In this document: positions 1,209 to 22,659 of the stretch, one piece after another
How the letters are laid out: each line of letters starts with the position of its first letter
Position numbering within the stretch: the stretch's first letter is position 1
IMG/VR virus record: IMGVR_UViG_3300046467_000560
Coordinates: 1-23,536 of that record
Direction: 5' to 3' (one strand)
DNA length: 23,536 nucleotides
Source: a virus
The notes under the pieces: model-generated
The model's database searches: none
The model's input: only the letters and a program-made list of their open reading frames with translations
What the model was told of the DNA's origin: nothing
Position numbers and translations under genes: made by a program

Positions 1209-2036
1209 GTGATAGTAGAAGAATTACTAAAGCAGAGAGACATATATTTTATACCTAAGGGTGCTGATTTCTTAGTTAACTGTCTCAATCCGGAACACGA
1301 TGATAAGAACCCTAGTATGAGGATTGATCAAATTACAGGTATTTATCAGTGTTTTTCTTGTGAGTTTAAAGGCAATATATTTACATATTTTGGGGAAAGG
1401 GCAAATCAATTACAGCTAAGACGAGAATTTCTAAAACGAAAAATTAGAGAAAAGAGGTCTGAAAGTATTGGTTTGTCCTTCCCCCAGGGTGTTATTCCTT
1501 ATATTGGAAATTGGAGGCAGATTAAACCCGAAACATATAAAAGATTTGAAGCATTTCAATCAGTAGAAAGTAATTTTATAGGAAGAATTAACTTTCCTAT
1601 AAGGGATATATCAGGACGTATAGTAGCATTTAACGGACGTCATACTACAGGAGGAACCCCTAAGTATATGATATCGCCAGCGGGTGCAAAGCTACCTTTA
1701 TTTCCCGTAGTAGAACCTATACAAGGTAAAGTAGTTTTAGTGGAAGGTATATACGACATGCTTAATCTACAAGATAAAGGAATGACAAATGCAATTTGTA
1801 CTTTTGGAACAAAAAATATTAATGAAGATAAATTAAGAATGCTTTCTATACAAGGAGTTGATAGTATAGATGTATTTTTTGATGGAGATGAGGCAGGACA
1901 GACTGCCGCAATAAAAGTAAAAGAGATGTGTAAACAAGTAGGTTTATTACATCGGAATATTTGTCTCAAGAATACAGATCCTGGGGCATTAAAACAACAA
2001 GCAGTAACCACTTTAAAGAGAAAATTATATGGCTAA
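1209..2036 (+). CDS. DNA primase (CHC2 zinc finger plus TOPRIM)
   Basis: It makes RNA primers for lagging-strand synthesis and should act with the upstream helicase. Seen in the 275-residue product: a zinc-binding set C25, H30, C48, C51 (CHC2 type); a DnaG-core-like segment RINFPIRDISGRIVAFNGR (126-144); KYMISP (152-157); and a TOPRIM domain with VVLVEGIYD (175-183, catalytic E179) and DVFFDGDEAG (221-230, D225 and D227). The length suits a stand-alone phage primase without a helicase domain. The start is GTG at 1209, supported by AGGA at 1196-1199 nine bases upstream; no ATG in frame fits better. The gene is served by the promoter at 1140-1168 and overlaps the polymerase start by 8 bases. 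Confidence 0.92.
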   Translation: MIVEELLKQRDIYFIPKGADFLVNCLNPEHDDKNPSMRIDQITGIYQCFSCEFKGNIFTYFGERANQLQLRREFLKRKIREKRSESIGLSFPQGVIPYIGNWRQIKPETYKRFEAFQSVESNFIGRINFPIRDISGRIVAFNGRHTTGGTPKYMISPAGAKLPLFPVVEPIQGKVVLVEGIYDMLNLQDKGMTNAICTFGTKNINEDKLRMLSIQGVDSIDVFFDGDEAGQTAAIKVKEMCKQVGLLHRNICLKNTDPGALKQQAVTTLKRKLYG

Positions 2037-4305
2037 GGTTGCCCTAATAGAAACCAAACCGAGTAGAACCAATTTTAAAAAAGAATTCGATAATGAAATA
2101 GAGTTTGATCAATATCAACTATGTTCTGATCGAAATATAAAAAAAGTATTAAAACGAGACTGTGACATTGAGATTGATACAAATGCATATGACTGGCTGA
2201 TTCTTATAGGTAGTGATGCGCTAAAGTATTTTACTAAAATTAATTCAGTTACAGAATATTCAGGTAAAAGGGTAGATGAGAAATTTCTTCCTATTATTAA
2301 TCCTGCCATGCTTTCTTTCAAGCCAGAGGCACAGCGTACATGGGACGATTCTAAGAAAAGTATTTTAGAGTATATAAACGATAATAAACAAGACACTGTT
2401 ATTACAGAAGAGAATGTTAAAGGTATACAAAATACTAAAGAATGTAATGAATACATTAGAGCAGCTATAGCCTCCCCCTCTCCTTATATAGCACTTGATT
2501 CCGAAACCACAGGTTTATATCCTAGAGATGGATATATTCTTGGGGTTTCTTTATCTTATGAAAAAGATCGCGGGGTTTATATAGATACAGAGTGTTTCGA
2601 TGAAACTACAGAAGAGTTATTACAACAGTTATGGAATGAAAAAATAGTAGTATTCCACAATGCCAAATTCGATATAGCTTTCTTTGAGTATCATTTTAAT
2701 TTTAAGTTTCCTTGTTTTGAAGATACCATGCTACTGCATTATCTTATTGATGAGAATCCAGGCACACATGGCCTAAAGCAATTAGCTATGAAATATACCG
2801 TGTATGGAGATTATGAAAAGCCTCAAAATGATTGGATGGCACAATATAGAAAAGATAATGGTATGAGAAAAGATGACTTCACATGGGATTTAATTCCTTT
2901 TGATATCATGAAAACTTATGCAGCTATGGATGCTGTAGTAACTTTCTTACTTTACGAGAAATTTATAAAAATTAAAAGCAATAAAAGATTGGCTAAGGTA
3001 TACGATAATATTCTTATACCAGGATGCCGATTTTTAACAGACATACAGGACAATGGTGTACCTTTTGATAAGAATAGGTTAATCAAGTCCCAAGAACTTA
3101 TGCAGGTAGAGATTGATAATGCAGTTGCAGAACTGTATAAGCATCCTGCGATTGGCAAATTTGAGGAAATAAATGGAAAAGATTTTAATCCAAATTCTAC
3201 TGTGCAGCTTCGTAGTTTATTGTTCGACTTCATTGGGCTTAATCCTACTGGAAAGAAAACTGGCACAGGCGCAAATAGCACAGATGCGGAAGTTCTTGAA
3301 GAGTTGGCACAACAATCCGAAGTCCCCCAACTTATCCTTACTATCCGACAAAAGTCTAAAATTAAAAATACTTATCTGGACAAAATCATACCTCAGTTGG
3401 ACAGGGATAATAGATTACGTACGGGTTTTAACTTACATAGTACAACTAGTGGTAGGCTTAGCTCTTCTGGCAAGCTTAATATGCAACAACTGCCTAGGGA
3501 TAATCCAATAGTTAAAGGATGTATTAAAGCAGCTCCTGGACATAAAATTATTTCAATGGATTTAACTACCGCTGAAGTATATGTTGCAGCAGTTTTAGCT
3601 GATGATACAGCACTTATGGACGTGTTTCGCTCAGGAGGCAATTTTCACTCACAGATTGCAAAAAAAGTATTTAAACTATCTTGTGAAGCCAGCGAAGTAG
3701 CAGAGTTCTATGGCATGCAAAGACAGGCAGCAAAAGCAGTAACCTTTGGCATCATGTATGGTGCTGGACCTAAAAAGATAAGTGAACAAGTTACCAAAGA
3801 TAGTGGTAAAGCTTTCACCGTAAATGAAGCTAAGGAAGTTATTGATGATTACTTTACTGAATTTCACAAATTAAAAACATGGATCGAAAATAACCAAAAT
3901 TTTATTAAGCAGAATGGATTTATTTATAGCTACTTCGGTCGTAAAAGGAGATTACCTAATGTCAAATCGACAGACAAAGTTATCCAGAGCCATAGCGTTA
4001 GGTCTGGTCTTAATTTTTTGGTGCAGTCTGCTGCTTCTGATATTAATCTTCTAGGAGCAATAGATATGGATTCATGGATTAAAGCAAACGGAAAGAAGGC
4101 TCGTATATTTGCTCTAGTACATGACTCGATTTTAGCAGAAGTACCTGATGATGAGATAGAAGAGTATAAACAAAAATTAACAGGATTTATTCAAATGAAT
4201 AGAGGCATCTCTATTCCGGGAACTCCTGTAGGCTGTGACTTTGAAATTGTACATGATGACTACTCAGGTGGTAAGTTCGAGAAGCTTTATGGTAATAACG
4301 TATAA
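2029..4305 (+). CDS. Family A DNA polymerase with 3'-5' exonuclease
   Basis: This is the replicative polymerase, with proofreading. In 758 residues: the N-terminus (1 to about 120) has a segment WLILIGSDALKYF...LPIINPAML (56-95) resembling the C-terminal half of a uracil-DNA glycosylase-like fold; the DnaQ-like exonuclease has Exo I DSET (D157, E159), Exo II HNAKFD (N211, D215) and Exo III YAAMD (Y297, D301). The polymerase has motif A at MDLTTAEVYVAA (D511, E516), motif B at RQAAKAVTFGIMYG (R565, K569, F573, Y577) and motif C at LVHDS (H698, D699). F573 aligns with E. coli Pol I F762, the state reported mainly in virulent phages. Motif A has Tyr where DYSQIELR has Arg. Start ATG 2029 overlaps the primase end by 8 bases, with a purine-rich stretch (AAAGAG) upstream. 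Confidence 0.95.
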   Translation: MAKVALIETKPSRTNFKKEFDNEIEFDQYQLCSDRNIKKVLKRDCDIEIDTNAYDWLILIGSDALKYFTKINSVTEYSGKRVDEKFLPIINPAMLSFKPEAQRTWDDSKKSILEYINDNKQDTVITEENVKGIQNTKECNEYIRAAIASPSPYIALDSETTGLYPRDGYILGVSLSYEKDRGVYIDTECFDETTEELLQQLWNEKIVVFHNAKFDIAFFEYHFNFKFPCFEDTMLLHYLIDENPGTHGLKQLAMKYTVYGDYEKPQNDWMAQYRKDNGMRKDDFTWDLIPFDIMKTYAAMDAVVTFLLYEKFIKIKSNKRLAKVYDNILIPGCRFLTDIQDNGVPFDKNRLIKSQELMQVEIDNAVAELYKHPAIGKFEEINGKDFNPNSTVQLRSLLFDFIGLNPTGKKTGTGANSTDAEVLEELAQQSEVPQLILTIRQKSKIKNTYLDKIIPQLDRDNRLRTGFNLHSTTSGRLSSSGKLNMQQLPRDNPIVKGCIKAAPGHKIISMDLTTAEVYVAAVLADDTALMDVFRSGGNFHSQIAKKVFKLSCEASEVAEFYGMQRQAAKAVTFGIMYGAGPKKISEQVTKDSGKAFTVNEAKEVIDDYFTEFHKLKTWIENNQNFIKQNGFIYSYFGRKRRLPNVKSTDKVIQSHSVRSGLNFLVQSAASDINLLGAIDMDSWIKANGKKARIFALVHDSILAEVPDDEIEEYKQKLTGFIQMNRGISIPGTPVGCDFEIVHDDYSGGKFEKLYGNNV

Positions 4306-13055: not shown

Positions 13056-13292
13056 ATGAGTGAAGTAACTGAAAATGCAGTACAAACTATTTCTATAAAT
13101 GATAAAGAGTACAAAGTAGATGAGATTTCTGATAGAGCTAAGTATCTTGTGGCACAAATTCAAGATATGCAGACACAAGCAAATCAAACTCGTGCTCGTC
13201 TTGATCAAATAGAAGTAGGTATGAGAGGTTTTACAAGCTTGCTACAGGAGGAGCTGGAAAAACCTAGTGATGAAGGTGAACTAGTACAATAA
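13056..13292 (+). CDS. Small helical protein, DUF6447-like
   Basis: A 78-residue acidic protein. The N-terminal third (ISINDKEYKVDEISDRAK) looks like a short beta element followed by a helix, and the rest (LVAQIQDMQTQANQTRARL) has the heptad pattern of a coiled coil. This layout matches small phage proteins annotated as DUF6447, but I recall that family only by pattern. No catalytic motif is visible. AGGA lies about ten bases before the ATG, 11 bases after the reductase stop, so it closes the operon. The terminator starts at its stop codon. Confidence 0.75.
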   Translation: MSEVTENAVQTISINDKEYKVDEISDRAKYLVAQIQDMQTQANQTRARLDQIEVGMRGFTSLLQEELEKPSDEGELVQ

Positions 13293-13317
13293 AAAGGGGC
13301 TTCGGCCCCCTTTTTTT
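13291..13317. terminator. Bidirectional Rho-independent terminator with UUCG loop
   Basis: GGGGC (13296-13300), TTCG (13301-13304) and GCCCC (13305-13309) form a hairpin with the very stable C(UUCG)G loop. Seven T residues follow on the + strand and a five-T run on the − strand. It sits between convergent genes: the small + strand gene stops at 13292 and fibre gene A, on the − strand, stops at 13316 inside the T tract. Confidence 0.92.
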
Positions 13318-14460
13318 ATCCTCCTATGAAGATATATGCTGCACCAGCAGCGCTTCCTCCAGTATCTTCAGCCCATGCACCTACAATAATTATACCCTCG
13401 TCCTCGTCTATTGCTGCTGCATTCCCAAACTGATCGCCACCTTGATCATCAGATGCTACTATTTTTTTAGCTTGTGTCCATGTAGTTCCATCACGAGTAA
13501 AGATATATGCTGCACCAGCACTGCTTCCTCCAGTATCTTCAAGACGAGCACCTACAATAACTGTATCACCTGATATGTTACTAGAATAACCAAAATCATC
13601 ACTAGCTGCTGCATCAGATGCTTGTATTTTTTGTTGTTGAGTCCAAGTGGTTCCAGAACGAGTAAAGATATATGCTGCACCCGCGTTGCTTCCTCCAGTA
13701 TCTTCTCTAATAGCACCCACAACAACTGTATTACTGTCTATTCCAACGGACTGTCCAAATCGATCATCTGCCGCTGCATCTGATGCTGTTAGCTTTTGTT
13801 GTTGAGACCAAGTAGTGCCGGAACGAGTAAAGATATAAGCAGCACCCGCATTGTCTCCTTCAGTATCTTCAAAAGTGGCACTTACAATAGCTGTATCCCC
13901 TGATAGTCCAACATGGTCCCCAAAATAATCACCAGCTTGTATATCAGATGATTGTATTTTTTGTTGTTGAGTCCAAGTGGTTCCTGAACGAGTAAAGATA
14001 TATGCTGCACCCGCCTCGGCTCCTCCAGTATCTTCAAAGGCGGCACCTATAATAGCTGTGTCACCACTTATTGCTACTGAGTACCCAAAATGATCACGAA
14101 ATTGTGGATCAGATGCTGTTAGCTTTTGTTGTTGAGACCAAGTAGTTCCAGAACGAGTATAGACATATACTGCACCCGCCTCGCCATAAGTAACCTGTTT
14201 GCTATACGCACCTGCAATAAGTGTGTCACCGTCTATTGAGACTGAGTGACCTAAATAATCATCAGTTGCTGCATCAGATGCTGTTAGCTTTTGTTGTTGA
14301 GTCCAAGTAGTTCCAGAACGAGTATAGACATATGCAGCGCCTTTATTACTGTTTTCCTTATAAGCACCCACGACAACTGTAGTGCCTGATATATCAACCT
14401 CCTTTCCAAAATAATCATCTGCCGCTGCATCTGATGCTACTATTTTAGCTTGTTGAGTAG
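13316..14460 (-). repeat. Seven FG-GAP repeats in fibre A
   Basis: Seven tandem coding repeats of roughly 150-170 bases. Each begins with a codon run for QQ(Q/A)K followed by (L/I)xASD and a D-x-FG turn, and ends at SGTTWT or SGTTWS. Repeat 2 has a divergent insert (YSKQVTYGEAG) and repeat 7 ends the protein with AAYIFIGG. Confidence 0.85.
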
Positions 14461-15163
14461 TAGCAGTCCAATCGTACGCAAATTCTAATGTAAATGCACC
14501 TATTGAATTTACAGCACCATTGACACCATCTGTAACAGTAAAGGTGATAGAAAAAGTACCTGCATAAGCCTCCGTAGTAGTAGGTGTTATAGTAAATACA
14601 TTTGCACTTTGAGAGACTGTAGCAGTAGCTCCTCCTCCATTGGTTAAAGAACCCGTAGTAACTGCATATGACCATGTTAACGGGAACCCTTCTGGGTCTG
14701 TAGATACCGCAGTAATGACAGTTGCAGTTGCATCTGTAGCCAAGGTATAAGCAGAACTAACTCCAGTGATAGCTGTGGGGGAAGCATTTGATACAGTAGC
14801 TACAAGAAACCACCCGTTAACTGAATATAAGTACAATTTATTAGTAGCTGTAACATATGCCAAATCTCCAGTAGACATTCCCGTAGCAGCTATTAAAAGA
14901 GCAAAAGTTGCATATACAGTAGTACTAAATCCACCAGAAACTACAAGGTCAAGAGTACCATCACCATCATCATATGTTGCTGCTATATTTGTCTCTGTAT
15001 TACCAGTAAACATTGCACCAACAACATCCTGTACCTCCTCTGTATTTAAGCCGCCACCAGCATCAGACTCCCATCTGGTGGTAGTAGAATTATAAGTATA
15101 TGTAAGTCCTCCTCCTATAATGGTATCTCCATTAGAAGGGGAATTTGTAAAATTAACAGGCAT
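13316..15163 (-). CDS. Fibre protein A: head, Ig-like module, seven FG-GAP repeats
   Basis: A probable tail-fibre or receptor-binding structural protein, 615 residues, last of four tandem paralogues in transcription order. Residues 1-75 are the shared head (MPVNFTNSPSNGDT, then VQDVVGAMF). Residues 83-123 carry the shared VYATFALL and LYLYSVNGWFL segment, and 127-228 an Ig-like domain (SNASPTAITG to AFTLEF). From about 236 to the end there are seven repeats of 50-56 residues, each with the pattern QQKLTASDAAADDRFG, then a DTVVVGA strand and a GAAYIFTRSGTTW strand. Seven such FG-GAP-type repeats predict a closed seven-bladed propeller, suited to binding surface glycans or proteins. There is no signal peptide, as expected for a virion protein. 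ATG 15163 has AAGGAGA seven bases upstream and lies 13 bases past the stop of gene B. Confidence 0.82.
   Translation of the reverse strand: MPVNFTNSPSNGDTIIGGGLTYTYNSTTTRWESDAGGGLNTEEVQDVVGAMFTGNTETNIAATYDDGDGTLDLVVSGGFSTTVYATFALLIAATGMSTGDLAYVTATNKLYLYSVNGWFLVATVSNASPTAITGVSSAYTLATDATATVITAVSTDPEGFPLTWSYAVTTGSLTNGGGATATVSQSANVFTITPTTTEAYAGTFSITFTVTDGVNGAVNSIGAFTLEFAYDWTATTQQAKIVASDAAADDYFGKEVDISGTTVVVGAYKENSNKGAAYVYTRSGTTWTQQQKLTASDAATDDYLGHSVSIDGDTLIAGAYSKQVTYGEAGAVYVYTRSGTTWSQQQKLTASDPQFRDHFGYSVAISGDTAIIGAAFEDTGGAEAGAAYIFTRSGTTWTQQQKIQSSDIQAGDYFGDHVGLSGDTAIVSATFEDTEGDNAGAAYIFTRSGTTWSQQQKLTASDAAADDRFGQSVGIDSNTVVVGAIREDTGGSNAGAAYIFTRSGTTWTQQQKIQASDAAASDDFGYSSNISGDTVIVGARLEDTGGSSAGAAYIFTRDGTTWTQAKKIVASDDQGGDQFGNAAAIDEDEGIIIVGAWAEDTGGSAAGAAYIFIGG
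14610..14767 (-). repeat. 158-bp exact copy shared by fibres A and D (Ig module)
   Basis: This stretch is identical base for base to 19958-20115 in gene D. It encodes the middle of the Ig-like module. Mismatches begin at once on both sides (T/C at 14609/19957 and G/A at 14768/20116). Confidence 0.95.
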
Positions 15164-15176
15164 TTTCTAATCTCCT

Positions 15177-16709
15177 TTAACTGTCGTCTGATAGAGCGGT
15201 TTGTGTACTTGGATATGCTCTTCCAGTACCCCAAATGATTTGAATGGTAGCATCTCCACCAGGATTCGCATTATATCCGGCGCCTCCACCATAATCTCCA
15301 CCGGCACTATTTCCTGCACCTCCTCCATCTGAACCACCACTACCACCTTTACCGGTACCTCCCCATCCACTACCATTATTTGTTCCACCAGCTCCATTAC
15401 TGCCTTGACCATATCTTCCAACACCGCCACCGCCAGTAGCAGCGCTACCAGATGATGAACCACCACCACCGCCTCCAGAGCCAGCAAGTCCATTCTCGTA
15501 TGAACCAGTACCATATCCTCCACGGCCACCGTTTCCAGCATATCCTGCCGCGCCTCCACCACCGCCCCATTTACCATCAGTTAAAGAGCCACCAGCACCA
15601 CCAGTGCCACCACCTGAAGTACCAGTACCGTAAGTACTACTACTTGATGACCAACCTGTTCCACCAGCGGCGAGGGTCGAGTTGCTTTGAGGCGACTCAC
15701 CACCGTTTGCATATAGAATATTAGTACCTCCACTTGTCTGAAAGGCTGTTCGTGTCGCATCACCAGAGTCATTTCCACCATCACCACCAGCAGTTCCTAT
15801 AACAGCTTTGTATGTTGCTCCAGGCACGACAGGGATATCATTTTTCCATCTCAAACCACCACCAGCACCTCCAGCAGAACCACTACCACCATAATCTCCT
15901 CCAGCTCCTATACAAAGAACACATATACTAGTAACATCAGTAGGGACTGTGAAAGTGTAAGTAGATTGATATGCTGGACCAGAAATACTGCCAGCTTTAT
16001 AATATGCCTGACGGCCACGGGGATGAAATGCTAATGTAAATGCACCTACTGCATTGACAGCACCATTGAGGTTATCTGTAACACTAAAAGTGATGGAGAA
16101 AGCACCTGCATAAGCCTCTGTAGTAGTAGGTGTTATAGTAAATACATTATCACTTTGAGAGACTGTGGCAGTAGCTCCTCCTCCATTGGTTAAAGAACCC
16201 GTAGTAACCGCATATGACCATGTTAAAGGAAATCCTTCTGGATCTGTAGATACCGCGGTAATAACAGTTGCAGTTGCATCTGTAGCTAAGTCATAAGTAG
16301 CACTAACTCCAGTGATAGCTGTGGGAGAGGCGTTAGCTACAGTAGCTACAAGAAACCAACCATTGACCGAATATAAATATAATTTATTAGTGGCTGTAAC
16401 ATATGCCAGATCTCCTGTAGACATTCCAGTAACAGCTATTAAAAGAGCAAAAGTTGCATAGACACTAAGTCCTGCAGCTTCAGAAACTACAAGATCAAGG
16501 GTACCATCACCATCTTCATATGTTGCTGTTATGCCTGTTCCAGCACTATCAGTAAACATCGCACCAACAACATCTTGAACCCCTTCTGTATTTAAGTCGC
16601 TGCCACCACTAGATTTCCACCTAGTAGTAGTAGAATTATAAGTATATGTAAAACCCCCTGATGTAATGGTATCTCCATTAGACGGGGAGTCTGTAAAATT
16701 AACTGGCAT
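15177..16709 (-). CDS. Fibre protein B: shared head and Ig module, glycine-rich adhesin-like tip
   Basis: A 510-residue paralogue of fibres A, C and D up to residue 228, with the same head (1-75), LYLYSVNGWFL segment (110-120) and Ig-like module (127-228). It then diverges completely. Residues 235-300 form a beta-rich segment (YTFTVPTDVTSICVLCIG, then LRWKNDIPVVPGATYKAVIG) that commonly introduces glycine-rich phage adhesins. Residues 305-487 are dominated by Gly, Ser and Asn, with runs such as WGGGGG and SGGGGGG. The end (IQIIWGTGRAYPS) is a motif I associate with marine phage structural proteins. Such tips can pack as polyglycine helices, as in gp38 adhesins of T4-like phages (family knowledge). 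It is therefore a likely alternative receptor-binding protein. ATG 16709 has AAGGAGA upstream at ideal spacing. Confidence 0.8.
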   Translation of the reverse strand: MPVNFTDSPSNGDTITSGGFTYTYNSTTTRWKSSGGSDLNTEGVQDVVGAMFTDSAGTGITATYEDGDGTLDLVVSEAAGLSVYATFALLIAVTGMSTGDLAYVTATNKLYLYSVNGWFLVATVANASPTAITGVSATYDLATDATATVITAVSTDPEGFPLTWSYAVTTGSLTNGGGATATVSQSDNVFTITPTTTEAYAGAFSITFSVTDNLNGAVNAVGAFTLAFHPRGRQAYYKAGSISGPAYQSTYTFTVPTDVTSICVLCIGAGGDYGGSGSAGGAGGGLRWKNDIPVVPGATYKAVIGTAGGDGGNDSGDATRTAFQTSGGTNILYANGGESPQSNSTLAAGGTGWSSSSSTYGTGTSGGGTGGAGGSLTDGKWGGGGGAAGYAGNGGRGGYGTGSYENGLAGSGGGGGGSSSGSAATGGGGVGRYGQGSNGAGGTNNGSGWGGTGKGGSGGSDGGGAGNSAGGDYGGGAGYNANPGGDATIQIIWGTGRAYPSTQTALSDDS

Positions 16710-16759
16710 TTTCTAATCTCCTTAATACTAGCATAATATAGTTTTTATTTATCATAATT

Positions 16760-18613
16760 CTATTCTGCCACAAAAATATAAGCAGCACCCGAATTGCTTG
16801 CTGTAGTATCTTCGGTCCAAGCACCTACAATAACTGTGTCACCTGATATTGCTGCCCCAATCCCAAAGTTATCACCCGATCCTGTATCAGAACCTTGTAT
16901 CTTTTTCTGTTGAGACCAAGTAGTGCCAGAACGAGTAAAGATATATGCTGCACCCGCATCGGTAGCTCCAGTATCTTCCTGATATGCACCTACAACAACT
17001 ACGTTACCATCTATTTCTACGTGATATCCAAATCTATCACCAGCAGCTATATCAGATGATTGTATTTTTTGTTGCTGAGTCCAAGTGGTTCCAGAACGGG
17101 TATAGATATATGCAGAACCTGCATCGGTTCCTCCAGTATCTTCCATATATGCACCTACAATAACTGTATCTCCTGATATTGCTACAGTAAACCCAAATCT
17201 ATCACCAGCGGCTGCATCAGACGCTGTTAGTTTCTGTTGTTGAGACCAAGTAGTGCCAGAACGAGTAAAGATATATGCTGCACCCGCATCGGTTCCTCCA
17301 GCATCTTCATAAGAAGCACCTATTACTACTGTATTATCATCTATTGCTACAGCAAACCCAAGTTTATCACCAGCGGCTGCATCAGACGCTGTTAGTTTCT
17401 GTTGTTGAGACCAAGTAGTGCCAGAACGAGTAAAGATATATGCTGCACCCGCATCGGTTCCTCCAGCATCTTCCGTATAAGCACCTACAATAACTGTGTC
17501 ATCTGATATTGCAACTCCGCGTCCAAATCTATCTTCAACTGCTTTATCAGATGCTTGTATTTTTTGTTGTTGAGACCAAGTAGTGCCAGAACGAGTAAAG
17601 ATATATGCTGCACCCGCATCGGTTCCTCCAGTATCCTGCCTGTAAGCACCCGCAATAATTGTATCACCTGATATTGATATTGCAATCCCAAAGTTATCAG
17701 TAACTGCACCATCAGATGCATATATATTTTGTTGTTGAGACCAAGTAGTACCAGAACGGGTAAAAACATATGCAGAACCTGCATCTGTATTACTAGTGGG
17801 TTGGTCCCCGAAGGAACCTACAACAGCTGTGTCACCATCTATTCCTACCTTATATCCAAAATAATCACTAGCGCCAGCATTGGATGCTTTTACTTTTTGT
17901 TGTTGAGCAGTAGCAGTCCAATCGTATGCAAATGTTAATGTAAATGCACTTGCTGCATTGACAGCACCATTAACTCCATCTGTAACGGTAAAAGTGATAG
18001 AAAAAGTACCTGCATAAGCCGTAGTAGTAGTAGGAGTAATAGTAAATACATTCGCATTCTGAGAGACTGTAGCAGTAGCTCCTCCTCCATTGGTTAAAGA
18101 ACCCGTAGTAACTGCATATGACCATGTTAAAGGGAACCCTTCTGGGTCTGTAGATACCGCAGTAATGACAGTTGCAGTTGCATCCTCAGCCAAGCTATAA
18201 GTAGCACTAACTCCAGTGATAGCTGTGGGAGAGGCGTTTGATACAGTAGCTATAAGAAACCACCCATTAACTGAATATAAATACAATTTATTATTGGCCG
18301 TAACATATGCCAGATCTCCAGTAGACATTCCCGTAACAGCTACCAAAAGAGCCATAGTTGCATAGACAGTAATTCCTGAAGCGTCAGGAACTACAAAGTC
18401 AACAGTACCATCACCATCTTCATATGTTGCTGTTATACCTGTTTCTGTATTACTACTAAACATCGCTCCAACAACATCTTGAATTCCTTCTGCTGCTAAG
18501 GTATTGCCGCCACTAGACTCCCACCTGGTAGTAGTAGAATTATAAGTATATGTAATTCCTTCTACTACGACGGTATTTCCATTAGACGGGGAGTCTGTGA
18601 AATTAACAGGCAT
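16760..18613 (-). CDS. Fibre protein C: head, Ig-like module, seven FG-GAP repeats
   Basis: A 617-residue protein with the same architecture as fibre A: head 1-75 (MPVNFTDSPSNGNT), VYATMALL and LYLYSVNGWFL segment, Ig-like module to about 228, then seven FG-GAP-type repeats (about 236-617). The repeats are more alike than in A or D; blades 3 to 5 are encoded by almost identical DNA at a 165-base period. The blade loops GGTDAG and EDTGGTDAG recur, while residues after the D-x-FG turn and in the GAYxED loop vary. ATG 18613 has AAGGAG upstream (spacer differs from the other three). The gene ends in TAG, and about 20 bases beyond it match the sequence after gene D, pointing to whole-gene duplication. 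Confidence 0.82.
   Translation of the reverse strand: MPVNFTDSPSNGNTVVVEGITYTYNSTTTRWESSGGNTLAAEGIQDVVGAMFSSNTETGITATYEDGDGTVDFVVPDASGITVYATMALLVAVTGMSTGDLAYVTANNKLYLYSVNGWFLIATVSNASPTAITGVSATYSLAEDATATVITAVSTDPEGFPLTWSYAVTTGSLTNGGGATATVSQNANVFTITPTTTTAYAGTFSITFTVTDGVNGAVNAASAFTLTFAYDWTATAQQQKVKASNAGASDYFGYKVGIDGDTAVVGSFGDQPTSNTDAGSAYVFTRSGTTWSQQQNIYASDGAVTDNFGIAISISGDTIIAGAYRQDTGGTDAGAAYIFTRSGTTWSQQQKIQASDKAVEDRFGRGVAISDDTVIVGAYTEDAGGTDAGAAYIFTRSGTTWSQQQKLTASDAAAGDKLGFAVAIDDNTVVIGASYEDAGGTDAGAAYIFTRSGTTWSQQQKLTASDAAAGDRFGFTVAISGDTVIVGAYMEDTGGTDAGSAYIYTRSGTTWTQQQKIQSSDIAAGDRFGYHVEIDGNVVVVGAYQEDTGATDAGAAYIFTRSGTTWSQQKKIQGSDTGSGDNFGIGAAISGDTVIVGAWTEDTTASNSGAAYIFVAE
17200..17308 (-). repeat. 109-bp exact direct repeat, copy 1 (fibre C blades)
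   Basis: Identical to 17365-17473, offset 165 bases (55 codons). A third copy at 17565-17631 matches 67 bases of it exactly, at offset 330. Confidence 0.93.
17365..17473 (-). repeat. 109-bp exact direct repeat, copy 2 (fibre C blades)
   Basis: Partner of 17200-17308. Each copy covers the end of one propeller blade and the start of the next, so recombination between them would remove or add exactly one 55-residue blade in frame. Confidence 0.93.
17973..18130 (-). repeat. 158-bp exact copy shared by fibres C and D (Ig module)
   Basis: Identical base for base to 19871-20028 in gene D. It encodes the C-terminal half of the Ig-like module. The match breaks at 17972 (A against G) and at 18131 (A against C). 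Confidence 0.95.
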
Positions 18614-18648
18614 TGTTTTTCTCCTTACTGTTTCTGTTTGTCATAATT

Positions 18649-19805
18649 TTATTCTGCCAGGAAGACATATGCGGAACCCGCACCTGAGGCCGTGGTATCT
18701 TCACCAGTGGCTCCTACTACTACTGTATCATCATCTATTGCTACGGCAGTTCCAAATTTATCATCAGCACCCGCATTTGATGCTGTTAATTTAGCTTGTT
18801 GAGACCAAGTAGTACCGGAACGAGTAAAGATATATGCTGCACCCGCATTTGAGCCTCCAGCATCTTCATTATGGGCCCCTACTACTACTGTAGCCGGTGA
18901 TACAGATACATCTATACCTACCTTTGTTCCAAAATTATCGCCAGCTTCTCCATCTGATGCTGTTAACTTGGCTTGCTGAGACCATGTAGTACCTGAACGA
19001 GTAAAGACATAAGCGGAGCCGGAAGAGGTTCCATCATCATCATCATACCAAGCTCCTACAATTATGTTATCACCATCTATTCCTACTGAAAACCCAAATT
19101 GATCACTAGCTGCTGCATCAGATGCTACTATTTTAGCTTGTTGAGTCCAAGTAGTTCCAGATCGAGTAAAGACATATGCGGAACCCGCAGCTGAATTTTC
19201 CAAATATGCTCCTACAACAAGTGTGTCACCTGATACTGATACGCTGGCAGAAGACCCACCAAAATAATCACCAGAAGCCCCATCAGATGCTGTTATTTTC
19301 TGTTGGACAGACCATGTAGTACCGGAACGAGTAAAGATATATGCTGCACCCTGACCCGAATTGTCGCCGTAATTTACAGCACCTACCACAATAGTATTAC
19401 TATCTAGTGCTACAGAACCCCCAAAATTGGCGTACGATGGATGGTCTGCTGATTGTATTTTTTGTTGCTGAGACCAAGTAGTTCCAGAACGAGTAAAGAC
19501 ATATACTGAACCCGCACTTGATGCTCCAGTAGCTTCCATATAAGCCCCTACTGCTACTGTATCACCATCTATTTCTACTGCATTACCAAAATGGTCCCCC
19601 GCTGCTAGATCTGATGAAACTAACTTTTGTTGCTGAGACCATGTAGTGCCAGAGAGATTAAAGACATATGCTGCACCTGCATCGTTTCCTCCTCCAGCCT
19701 TTGTTGCATAGTCAGCACCTACAATAGTATAAGCACCATCTACTGAAACGGCCTGTCCAAAATAATCATTTGCCCCTAATCCAGATCCTTGTATCCTTTG
19801 CTGAG
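18649..19805 (-). repeat. Seven FG-GAP repeats in fibre D
   Basis: Seven coding repeats, more diverged than those of fibre C. Blade 1 starts QQRIQGSGLGANDYFG; blade 4 has an insert after the FG turn (GGSSASVSVSG); blade 6 has a short insert (DVSVSPA). Three blades use QQAK in place of QQQK. Confidence 0.83.
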
Positions 19806-22659
19806 TAGCACTACCCCAATCGTATGCAAATGTTAATGTAAATGCACCTACTGCATTGACAACTCCATTGACTCCATCTGTAACGGTAAAAGTGATAGAA
19901 AAAGTACCTGCATAAGCCGTAGTAGTAGTAGGAGTAATAGTAAATACATTCGCATTCTGAGAGACTGTAGCAGTAGCTCCTCCTCCATTGGTTAAAGAAC
20001 CCGTAGTAACTGCATATGACCATGTTAACGGGAACCCTTCTGGGTCTGTAGATACCGCAGTAATGACAGTTGCAGTTGCATCTGTAGCCAAGGTATAAGC
20101 AGAACTAACTCCAGTAATAGCTGTGGGAGAGGCATTTGATATAGTAGCAACAAGAAACCAACCGTTAACCGAATATAAGTATAATTTATTAGTGGCTGTA
20201 ACGTATGCCTGATCTCCAGTAGACATTCCAGTAGCAGCTATTAAAAGTGCAAAAGTTGCATAGACAGTAACAGTTCCTGAAGCTGCTATAGTAATAGAAT
20301 TATTAGCAACAGTAGTGTTTACTCCGGTACCCCCACTAAAAGTTAGGGTGTCTGTACCAACAGTAACTGCGTCATTACTACCAGAATCTGCAGCGATAGT
20401 AAGAGTAGAAGCTGAGGCGGCTTTTGAAACAAACTCAACCCATTGAGAGCTACTACCATCATTATAATATATATAAGGATTGAGATCATCAGAATCCCAC
20501 CAAACGTCTCCCGAGGAAGGGCTACCAGGAGCAGAAGCTCCGGGAGTAATACTACTACCACCAGCAGCAACGGCTCCCCATTCAAGAGTAGTACCTGAAG
20601 AAGGTGCTTTAAGAACTTGACCTGATGAACCTATACTATTTGGTATGGTAAAAGTAGGTAAGGACAGTGTGCCTGTTACTGCTACACCCGCTGCACTTGT
20701 TTCAATTTTTACTACATTATCATAATATAATTTTACCGCACCATCTATATCAGCACGAATCATTATTTCAGTTCCACCTGGATTCATCAGATAGAAATCT
20801 TCGGCTCTTATTGATAAATTACCAGCACCAGTATCAGCAATAACTGAATCAGAACCATCATGATAAATTTGTAAATCATCTCCTGTGCCTAAAAGAATTT
20901 TGGCATTATCTGGCATATCAATATGAGTAGTTGGACTGATAACACCTGTAACACCTAAGGTTCCACCAACAGTTTGGTTACCACTAACTGCTAAACCTGT
21001 TAAAGTGCCTACAGAAGTAATAGCGGTTTGAGCTGCACCTGTAACTGTAGCTGCTGTACCAGTAGTATTTTGATTTAGAGTACCAACAACAAGATCAACA
21101 GTTCCATCACCATCTTCATATGTTACTGTTATACCTGTTTCTGTATTACTACTAAACATCCCACCAACAATATCTTGTACTGCTTCAGTGGATAAACCTG
21201 CGTCAGCCGACCAAGCAATATCTGTTCCATCTGATTTTAATACTTCGCCACTGCTACCTACTGCTAATAGAGCAGGATTTCCTGAAGCATCACCATAAAT
21301 AATCTTACCTCTTGCTATTCCTGCTAGTTCAGCAATTCCAACTGTGTTATCTTGAATTGCTGAACTAAGGGTAATGTTACCTGTGCCATCAAAACTAACG
21401 CCTGAAGCTACTACATCACCTGAGAGAGCTACTGTGCGACCTGTCGCTAATGCGGTTGCAGTTGACGCATTACCAGTAACATTTCCTTCAAGAGCTGCTA
21501 CTAGTGTTCCTACGGCATAGCCTGTACCACTTGTATTTACAGTAGTTGTAGGGGCTGCCTGAGTGTCTTTAAATAATTTCCACTTACCACTATCAGAAGC
21601 ATCTCTAAATAAACCTGAGTAAAGATCTTGAGAACCACTAGTATCATATAAACCATAGAGTCCTATATCTACTGCATCTGCAGCATTATTATTACTTGCT
21701 AGTGCTACTAACGGGTCGGCAACTGTAATTGTTGTACTAGAAACTGTTGTTTGAGTTCCAGCAACTGTTAAGTTTCCTGCTATTGTTACATTAGTAGGTA
21801 AACCAAGATTAATCTTATTATTTGAAACTGTTGTTTCTATTTCGTTTGCAGTACCTTCAAAAGTTAGGGTATCTGTTCCAACTGTAACAGTATCATTACT
21901 ACCACTATCTGCAGCGATTGTAAGTACTGAACTTGTAGCTGCTGTACTTGCTGCTGTTACACGTCCTTGAGCATCAATAGTTAATACAGGAATTGCTGAA
22001 CTTGAACCATATGCTGCGGCTGTTACTGCAGTATTAGCTAACTTAGCTGCTGTTACTTGATCATCTGCTATATGTGCAGTATCAATACTACCATCAGTAT
22101 AATGTTCGCTGTCTATAGCATCGTCAGCTATTTTAGCACCCGTAATTGCATCTGCTGCTATATATCCACTTGCTATAGCTGTGCCTTGCCATACACCTGT
22201 TCCAATTGTTCCAACAGTAACAAGATTAGCTGCACTTGTAATAGCGGCTTGTGTTGCACCAGTAACTGTAGCTGCTGTACCAGTTGTATTTTGAGTACCC
22301 GCAGCATTAACGCCAGGTAAGTTAATATTAGCTGATCCATTAAATGATACTCCACCAATAGTTCTTGCTGTCGTTAGAGTAGCAGCACTACCAGTTGTAT
22401 TTTGATTCAGAGTACCTATAGTAGCATCTAAAGCTCCATCTCCTGCATCATCATAAGCAAAAGAAATACCTGTATGAGATGCATTAGTTACTAACTGATT
22501 TCCTACAACATCCTGTACCTGCTCTGCTGTTAAGCCAGTACCCGTACCACTACTGGTAGCTTCCCACCTAGTGCTACTGGAGCTATAAATATATGTAACT
22601 CCTCCTACTGTAATGGTATCATCATTAGAGGGTGAGTTTGTAAAATTAATTGAGGTCAT
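18649..22659 (-). CDS. Fibre protein D: long tail fibre with stalk and seven-bladed propeller
   Basis: The largest fibre, 1336 residues. It starts with a head module (MTSINFTNSPSNDDT, VQDVVGNQL, ending near DATIGTLNQNTTG). A long repetitive stalk of about 700 residues follows, rich in Thr, Ala, Gly and Val and fitting a beta-rich trimeric shaft. The stalk holds a second partial head (LSTEAVQDIVGGMF, again followed by GTLNQNTTG), two copies of LTIAADSGSND, a segment with GTGDDLQIYHDGSDSVI (about 580-655) and one with SSGDVWWDSDDLNPYIYY (about 707-745), both of a type seen in marine phage tail fibres. The Ig-like module (about 844-945) and seven FG-GAP repeats (about 950-1336) complete it. ATG 22659 has AAGGAGA upstream. 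It is probably the main fibre of which A-C are shorter relatives. Confidence 0.85.
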   Translation of the reverse strand: MTSINFTNSPSNDDTITVGGVTYIYSSSSTRWEATSSGTGTGLTAEQVQDVVGNQLVTNASHTGISFAYDDAGDGALDATIGTLNQNTTGSAATLTTARTIGGVSFNGSANINLPGVNAAGTQNTTGTAATVTGATQAAITSAANLVTVGTIGTGVWQGTAIASGYIAADAITGAKIADDAIDSEHYTDGSIDTAHIADDQVTAAKLANTAVTAAAYGSSSAIPVLTIDAQGRVTAASTAATSSVLTIAADSGSNDTVTVGTDTLTFEGTANEIETTVSNNKINLGLPTNVTIAGNLTVAGTQTTVSSTTITVADPLVALASNNNAADAVDIGLYGLYDTSGSQDLYSGLFRDASDSGKWKLFKDTQAAPTTTVNTSGTGYAVGTLVAALEGNVTGNASTATALATGRTVALSGDVVASGVSFDGTGNITLSSAIQDNTVGIAELAGIARGKIIYGDASGNPALLAVGSSGEVLKSDGTDIAWSADAGLSTEAVQDIVGGMFSSNTETGITVTYEDGDGTVDLVVGTLNQNTTGTAATVTGAAQTAITSVGTLTGLAVSGNQTVGGTLGVTGVISPTTHIDMPDNAKILLGTGDDLQIYHDGSDSVIADTGAGNLSIRAEDFYLMNPGGTEIMIRADIDGAVKLYYDNVVKIETSAAGVAVTGTLSLPTFTIPNSIGSSGQVLKAPSSGTTLEWGAVAAGGSSITPGASAPGSPSSGDVWWDSDDLNPYIYYNDGSSSQWVEFVSKAASASTLTIAADSGSNDAVTVGTDTLTFSGGTGVNTTVANNSITIAASGTVTVYATFALLIAATGMSTGDQAYVTATNKLYLYSVNGWFLVATISNASPTAITGVSSAYTLATDATATVITAVSTDPEGFPLTWSYAVTTGSLTNGGGATATVSQNANVFTITPTTTTAYAGTFSITFTVTDGVNGVVNAVGAFTLTFAYDWGSATQQRIQGSGLGANDYFGQAVSVDGAYTIVGADYATKAGGGNDAGAAYVFNLSGTTWSQQQKLVSSDLAAGDHFGNAVEIDGDTVAVGAYMEATGASSAGSVYVFTRSGTTWSQQQKIQSADHPSYANFGGSVALDSNTIVVGAVNYGDNSGQGAAYIFTRSGTTWSVQQKITASDGASGDYFGGSSASVSVSGDTLVVGAYLENSAAGSAYVFTRSGTTWTQQAKIVASDAAASDQFGFSVGIDGDNIIVGAWYDDDDGTSSGSAYVFTRSGTTWSQQAKLTASDGEAGDNFGTKVGIDVSVSPATVVVGAHNEDAGGSNAGAAYIFTRSGTTWSQQAKLTASNAGADDKFGTAVAIDDDTVVVGATGEDTTASGAGSAYVFLAE
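19871..20115 (-). repeat. Mosaic Ig-module segment of fibre D
   Basis: Bases 19871-20028 are identical to 17973-18130 of gene C, and bases 19958-20115 are identical to 14610-14767 of gene A. The 71 bases 19958-20028 are common to all three genes. Identity switches partner across this overlap. Confidence 0.95.

Follow-up and report, generated by a model that had tools for sequence, protein, structure and literature searches.

We think it probable that the fibre set in the right part of the window – a 23,536-bp IMG/VR virus record, analysed over its whole length – is a tandem series of genes for tail fibres (receptor-binding proteins), carried by a marine, uncultured tailed phage that is probably a siphovirus, and that a portable connector in these proteins bears tips which are exchanged immediately after an Ig-like domain. 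The host range of an uncultured marine phage is not readable from its genome. Should many of the adhesive tips prove to sit on one portable connector with a fixed joint, it becomes possible to catalogue them, to match them between phage families and to test them singly.

The genes are numbered by order of transcription, F1 to F4 (D, C, B and A of an earlier sequence-only reading), and all lie on the minus strand. F1 (18649..22659, minus strand) encodes a long, fibre-like protein of 1336 aa that comprises a head, a shaft, a hairpin module and Ig domain (residues 799–841 and 842–944; together 19828..20265, minus strand), and a tip of seven FG-GAP_2 blades (18652..19827, minus strand). The remaining three are short fibre genes, all on the same strand: F2 (16760..18613; 617 aa) and F4 (13316..15163; 615 aa) end in an FG-GAP propeller and F3 (15177..16709; 510 aa) in a glycine-rich tip. 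Each short gene begins with a base of residues 1–228 – head, linker, hairpin and Ig in F2 – located at 17930..18613 in F2, 16026..16709 in F3 and 14480..15163 in F4; the tips of F2 and F3 occupy 16763..17929 and 15180..16025 (all minus strand). An N-terminal head of ~36 residues, a beta-hairpin module and an Ig-like domain are common to all four, in agreement with the earlier proposal of four tandem genes sharing head and Ig-like modules: all are intact open reading frames, with protein identity of 88–95% over Mod2 plus Ig, and the resemblance greatly exceeds what chance would give. F1 is more than a simple paralogue, for a shaft of about 700 aa has been added between head and hairpin, and this shaft also holds extra base-like repeats. 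The gaps between genes measure 35, 50 and 13 nt; an AAGGAG-type ribosome-binding site precedes each gene, and AAGGAGATTAGAAA stands directly before the ATG of F1, F3 and F4. Among the promoter types scanned there was no excess over shuffles inside the array, and thus no sign of separate regulation.

The alignments also show the point at which the genes cease to resemble one another. Over nt 1–684 F2, F3 and F4 share 86% DNA identity, and the alignments of F3 with F2, with F4 and – in its own coordinates – with F1 all stop at nt 684 (residue 228), precisely where the sequence-only reading had placed the switch in this gene (right after the Ig module, residue 228/229). The base of F3 is 82–84% identical to those of its sisters and 57% to that of L162; its tip is unrelated to the sisters' tips and 64% identical in amino acids to that of L162, the nearest relative found. 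By these alignments F3 is the clearest chimera of the set.

The uniformity of the base extends to positions at which the encoded protein is indifferent to the nucleotide. At fourfold-degenerate sites Ig identity is 0.86 within the window, 0.80 within the related contig L007 and 0.58 between the two, while the corresponding values for the tips are 0.60, 0.50 and 0.50. Given that Ig identity is only 0.58 between phages, the uniformity within each phage is not a matter of constraint on the DNA itself. A tree of the bases groups the paralogues by phage with strong support; a tree of the tips does not group them so. Tip phylogeny was considered as proof of horizontal origin and set aside, its topology being unsettled: in AU tests a single origin of each phage's tips was not rejected (p 0.30 and 0.38). 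The argument is based instead on the synonymous-site contrast, on F3 compared with L162 and on the swaps between close relatives. A base of this uniformity would result from gene conversion among the bases, and equally from a recent duplication after which tips were imported. With its base homogenised, a phage would have a concrete mechanism, open to test, by which several specificities could be kept interchangeable.

The sharpest contrast at fourfold sites is that between F1 and F2, which are identical at 63/66 sites in the Ig domain and 79/136 in the tip (Fisher p 7e-9). This could be the trace of a recent exchange between long and short genes, as would follow if F1 – the only member with a long shaft – did the work of a fibre alone and the short genes were kept mainly as a store of tips, available for recombination with F1 or with other phages, a reservoir rather than a mixed virion. 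We regard this as unlikely: F2–F4 have retained their heads, starts and ribosome-binding sites as well as uninterrupted reading frames, which is unexpected for silent cassettes, and related arrays likewise hold several intact short genes. Intact genes and ribosome-binding sites favour co-expression of F1–F4; since the genes also lie head to tail, all four are likely to be made, with more than one tip type per burst.

The nature of the tips was addressed by domain searches and structure models. Pfam finds seven FG-GAP_2 stretches (PF14312) in each of F1, F2 and F4 (E 1e-108 to 1e-123, above the curated cut-off), and Gly_rich_2 (PF21722) in residues 249–448 of F3; the latter match is marginal (E 1.5e-5; 25.5 bits against a curated cut-off of 24.3), and the homologous tips of L041 and L045 score 40.3 and 37.6. 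Three FG-GAP tips and one glycine-rich tip, in the third gene, are what had been read from the letters. Structure prediction had been proposed for all four proteins, and F2 and F3 were modelled. The F2 model is a confident propeller (mean pLDDT 86, propeller blocks mostly >90), and the PDB folds that match it best belong to integrin alpha chains, with E values as low as 4.6e-18; all of the 50 best matches listed are integrin chains. On this basis the tips of F1, F2 and F4 are predicted to be seven-bladed propellers of the integrin-alpha type, the parallel being one of seven blades in a high-confidence model, although identity is about 18% and the domain here is a putative phage fibre tip. The F3 model is poor in its glycine-rich part, and the linker (~residues 40–80) is of low confidence in both models. 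The sole fold match of F3 below 0.001 is the fibre gp24 of cyanophage Pam3 (PDB 7ypx; TM 0.22–0.40). Pam3 gp24 also has a glycine-rich domain, which serves in host recognition within a trimeric fibre (PMC9608196), but the match is a weak one to a low-confidence model and the Pam3 protein has a helical N-terminus and a separate chaperone; we treat the likeness as a lead. A sequence search of the PDB returned nothing useful, the Fab and NBR1 matches being due to chance.

Scans with F2, an alignment of bases, NrdJ and F1 yielded several hundred viral loci, related IMG/VR contigs among them. In the loci from three of these scans the Ig module is present in 162 proteins across 88 loci, and at least two hairpin-Ig genes occur in 37 loci (the window counted), with up to seven per locus. 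Clustering of the tips of 110 Ig proteins (after dereplication, the window's four added) gave 22 clusters. The largest are a LamG-type cluster of 51 and an FG-GAP-centred cluster of 27, which also took in four glycine-rich members; the others are smaller – TolB-like propeller, ConA-like, many glycine-rich kinds and single oddities – and the class names of the small clusters are our own reading of the sequences. For the 883 pairs that combine a similar Ig domain with tips from different clusters, the final four Ig residues show an identity of 0.65, and the four residues that follow one of 0.08. The pairs are not mutually independent, and it is the model that sets the end of the Ig domain, but same-tip pairs stay near 0.4 past that point.

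The connector is no more bound to one head than to one tip. Among 105 dereplicated Ig proteins with an uncut N-terminus the head is found in 54 and other N-termini in 51, and 45 further proteins (not dereplicated) carry the head with no detected Ig. Three parts can be told apart, head, connector and tip, and each is exchangeable independently of the others. The earlier idea of a common attachment base with exchangeable tips therefore needs to be divided: the shared N-terminal part and the changing tips stand, but the base is not one fixed unit, because about half of the hairpin-Ig proteins have some other N-terminus.

Direct examples of replacement in place come from other phage groups with the same modules, not the window's closest kin. 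A 1692-bp stretch shared by L183 and L178 at 96.1% identity ends 1 nt (L183) and 13 nt (L178) before the end of the Ig domain; their tips, both glycine-rich, then differ (67% over one 228-nt piece), and identity returns to 95.9% over 2009 bp downstream. The next gene, which is LamG-tipped, likewise differs in its tip. Comparison of L183 with L210 or L213 again shows flanks of 96–97%, here enclosing a glycine-rich tip in L183 and a ConA-like one in its counterparts. Replacement at the same junction across related phages, which the sequence-only reading had suggested looking for, is thus seen both in these loci and in the 883 pairs; at the level of the aligned genes, the comparisons show that phages have exchanged tips with one another, and always at one boundary, where the Ig domain ends.

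Closer to home, the nearest relative found, L081, is 90.3% identical in DNA to the window over 6633 bp of the replication half. The homology extends almost to the end of the small gene that follows NrdJ and no further, and the fibre gene nearest to NrdJ in L081 terminates in an S74 chaperone instead of a propeller; more distant NrdJ relatives carry entirely different fibres at that place. Conservation of all four genes unchanged, with no exchange of tips, is consequently not what relatives display.

The window is a fragment lacking its own tail operon, and tail context was accordingly read from relatives. The 44.8 kb contig of L007 carries a head-tail adaptor, followed by neck, tail terminator, major tail protein and tape measure genes; there follow Dit, a central fibre J of 2211 aa, other fibre genes, five head-bearing genes (four FG-GAP, one S74) and a convergent NrdJ. 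No sheath gene was recognised in this contig, and for this reason the window's phage group is most likely siphoviral; by analogy with this relative, the array would be the side-fibre region of the group. In the L213 contig an analogous array lies beside T4-type neck (gp13/gp14-type) and tail-sheath-stabiliser genes, which indicates that the modules cross tail types. Both of these relatives' arrays thus have the tail-region location typical of receptor-binding proteins (RBPs), and the combination, across related phages, of a conserved N-terminal part and C-terminal parts that lack homology is that of RBP domain mosaicism. The position of the arrays in the two contigs supports, by analogy, a tail-fibre role.

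Ig-like domains occur on phage capsids, and the short proteins could in principle be Ig-like, lectin-like decorations of capsid or neck that stick to surfaces or polysaccharide; that cyanophage FG-GAP proteins are mostly annotated just as 'structural protein' would accord with this. The order of genes argues otherwise – the L007 array comes after the tail-tip and side-fibre genes, and that of L213 adjoins neck and tail-sheath-stabiliser genes – as does the fact that the same head begins a protein with an S74 fibre chaperone end, and we consider decoration highly improbable. Fibre proteins might alternatively be assembled as a branched complex, the short ones joining an F1 trunk via the common head, rather than each being fixed to the tail by itself, in the manner of Ackermannviridae tailspikes, for which there is precedent (PMC11414711). 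The presence of one head on long and short members, together with the base-like repeats inside the F1 shaft, is compatible with such a complex, but F1, too, begins with this head, and the gp10-like XD domains by which the Ackermannviridae arrangement is recognised (compare T4 gp10) have no match in F1–F4 by Pfam or PHROGs. A branched complex appears to us quite unlikely.

Under the tail-fibre reading that we prefer, the N-terminal head would dock to the tail, the portable hairpin and Ig-like connector would link it to the distal tip, and the tip would contact the host surface. The uniform DNA of the base could supply the homology through which paralogues recombine with one another and with genes of co-infecting phages, such that homologous recombination in the connector would swap tips and leave assembly undisturbed. 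Several fibre types would be made in one infection, and the virions of one burst probably carry more than one tip type. A more ambitious proposal – a dedicated tip-exchange system, with Ig DNA homogenised by gene conversion into a standing platform for recombination, tips of many unrelated folds shuffled within a genome and between marine sipho- and myoviruses, and mixed-fibre virions – is one we advance tentatively and with some doubt.

Exchange of RBP tips is familiar from other phages, and this set is mostly an unusually clear further instance of it; what is new is the homogenised base with its fixed, portable joint. Domain shuffling of RBPs among phages has been described (Smug et al. 2023, PMC10684548); by comparison, the window has several such genes in tandem within one genome, and their homogenised Ig connector has a single fixed joint that serves many tip folds. 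In Ackermannviridae tandem tailspike (tsp) genes recombine through conserved N-terminal parts, and these branched tailspikes likewise give one phage several receptor-binding proteins with conserved N-terminal parts (PMC11414711), but the head and the tip folds of the window differ. Receptor switching by fibre recombination is known from marine vibrio phages (PMC12028318). Pelagimyophages and cyanomyophages possess host recognition clusters or islands, hypervariable for tail fibres (PMC7029224), and the L213 array resembles these in lying next to gp13/gp14-type neck genes. That island, however, is situated between VrlC and gp14 of T4-like myoviruses, whereas the array of the window's siphovirus-like group lies between fibre genes and NrdJ, and the logic of head, connector and tip is not described in the available part of that source.

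The left part of the window, on the plus strand, is by ORF annotation a replication module: a DnaB-like helicase, DnaG-like primase, family A DNA polymerase, UvsW-like helicase, SSB, SbcCD-like pair, PDDEXK nuclease, 5'-3' exonuclease and NrdJ, the last a B12-dependent class II ribonucleotide reductase. Among the ORFs of this half that were scanned no reverse transcriptase, as a diversity-generating explanation would call for, was seen within the window, and Rfam gave no hits. The polymerase (2029–4305) is closest among annotated phages to those of T5-like and vibrio siphoviruses (about 44% identity), and NrdJ to those of an unclassified spring-water phage and roseophages (about 60%); at such distances the group has no cultured close kin. 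Nor was a cultured member found by way of the fibres, since a search of annotated phage genomes at E 1e-5 left F3 unmatched, and matches to its base were weak (E 0.06–0.3). Bacterial genomes were examined for a hint of the host: four phage-like MAG contigs (L232–L235: NZIV01000030, NHFY01000018, NHFY01000045 and NZIV01000047) sit in a Flavobacteriales MAG and a Neomarinimicrobiota MAG, and as the same two contig names are binned into two phyla they are mis-binned and uninformative.

The fibre set is convergent with the replication half, and a terminator-like GC hairpin (13296..13309, no strand assigned) lies between it and the NrdJ side; the homology with L081 ends just before this hairpin. 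The small conserved gene after NrdJ (13056–13292; 78 aa; phrog_21153, with weak similarity to a tail fibre family) marks, in several relatives, where the stable replication half gives way to the variable fibre locus. Beside NrdJ some relatives have, instead of the array, very long S/T-rich repeat proteins of the NTSRSTxTS... type (L084 14494-17580, L088 13774-18339, L093 6348-10574, L097 14059-18477 and L104 14071-19416). A head-bearing gene that starts with MPISLP is found in L180, L181, L183, L178, L210 and L218: its start is near-constant, and its C-termini vary by contig – two glycine-rich kinds, a ConA-like one, a 515-aa form, and forms of 116-122 aa with a collagen-like end.
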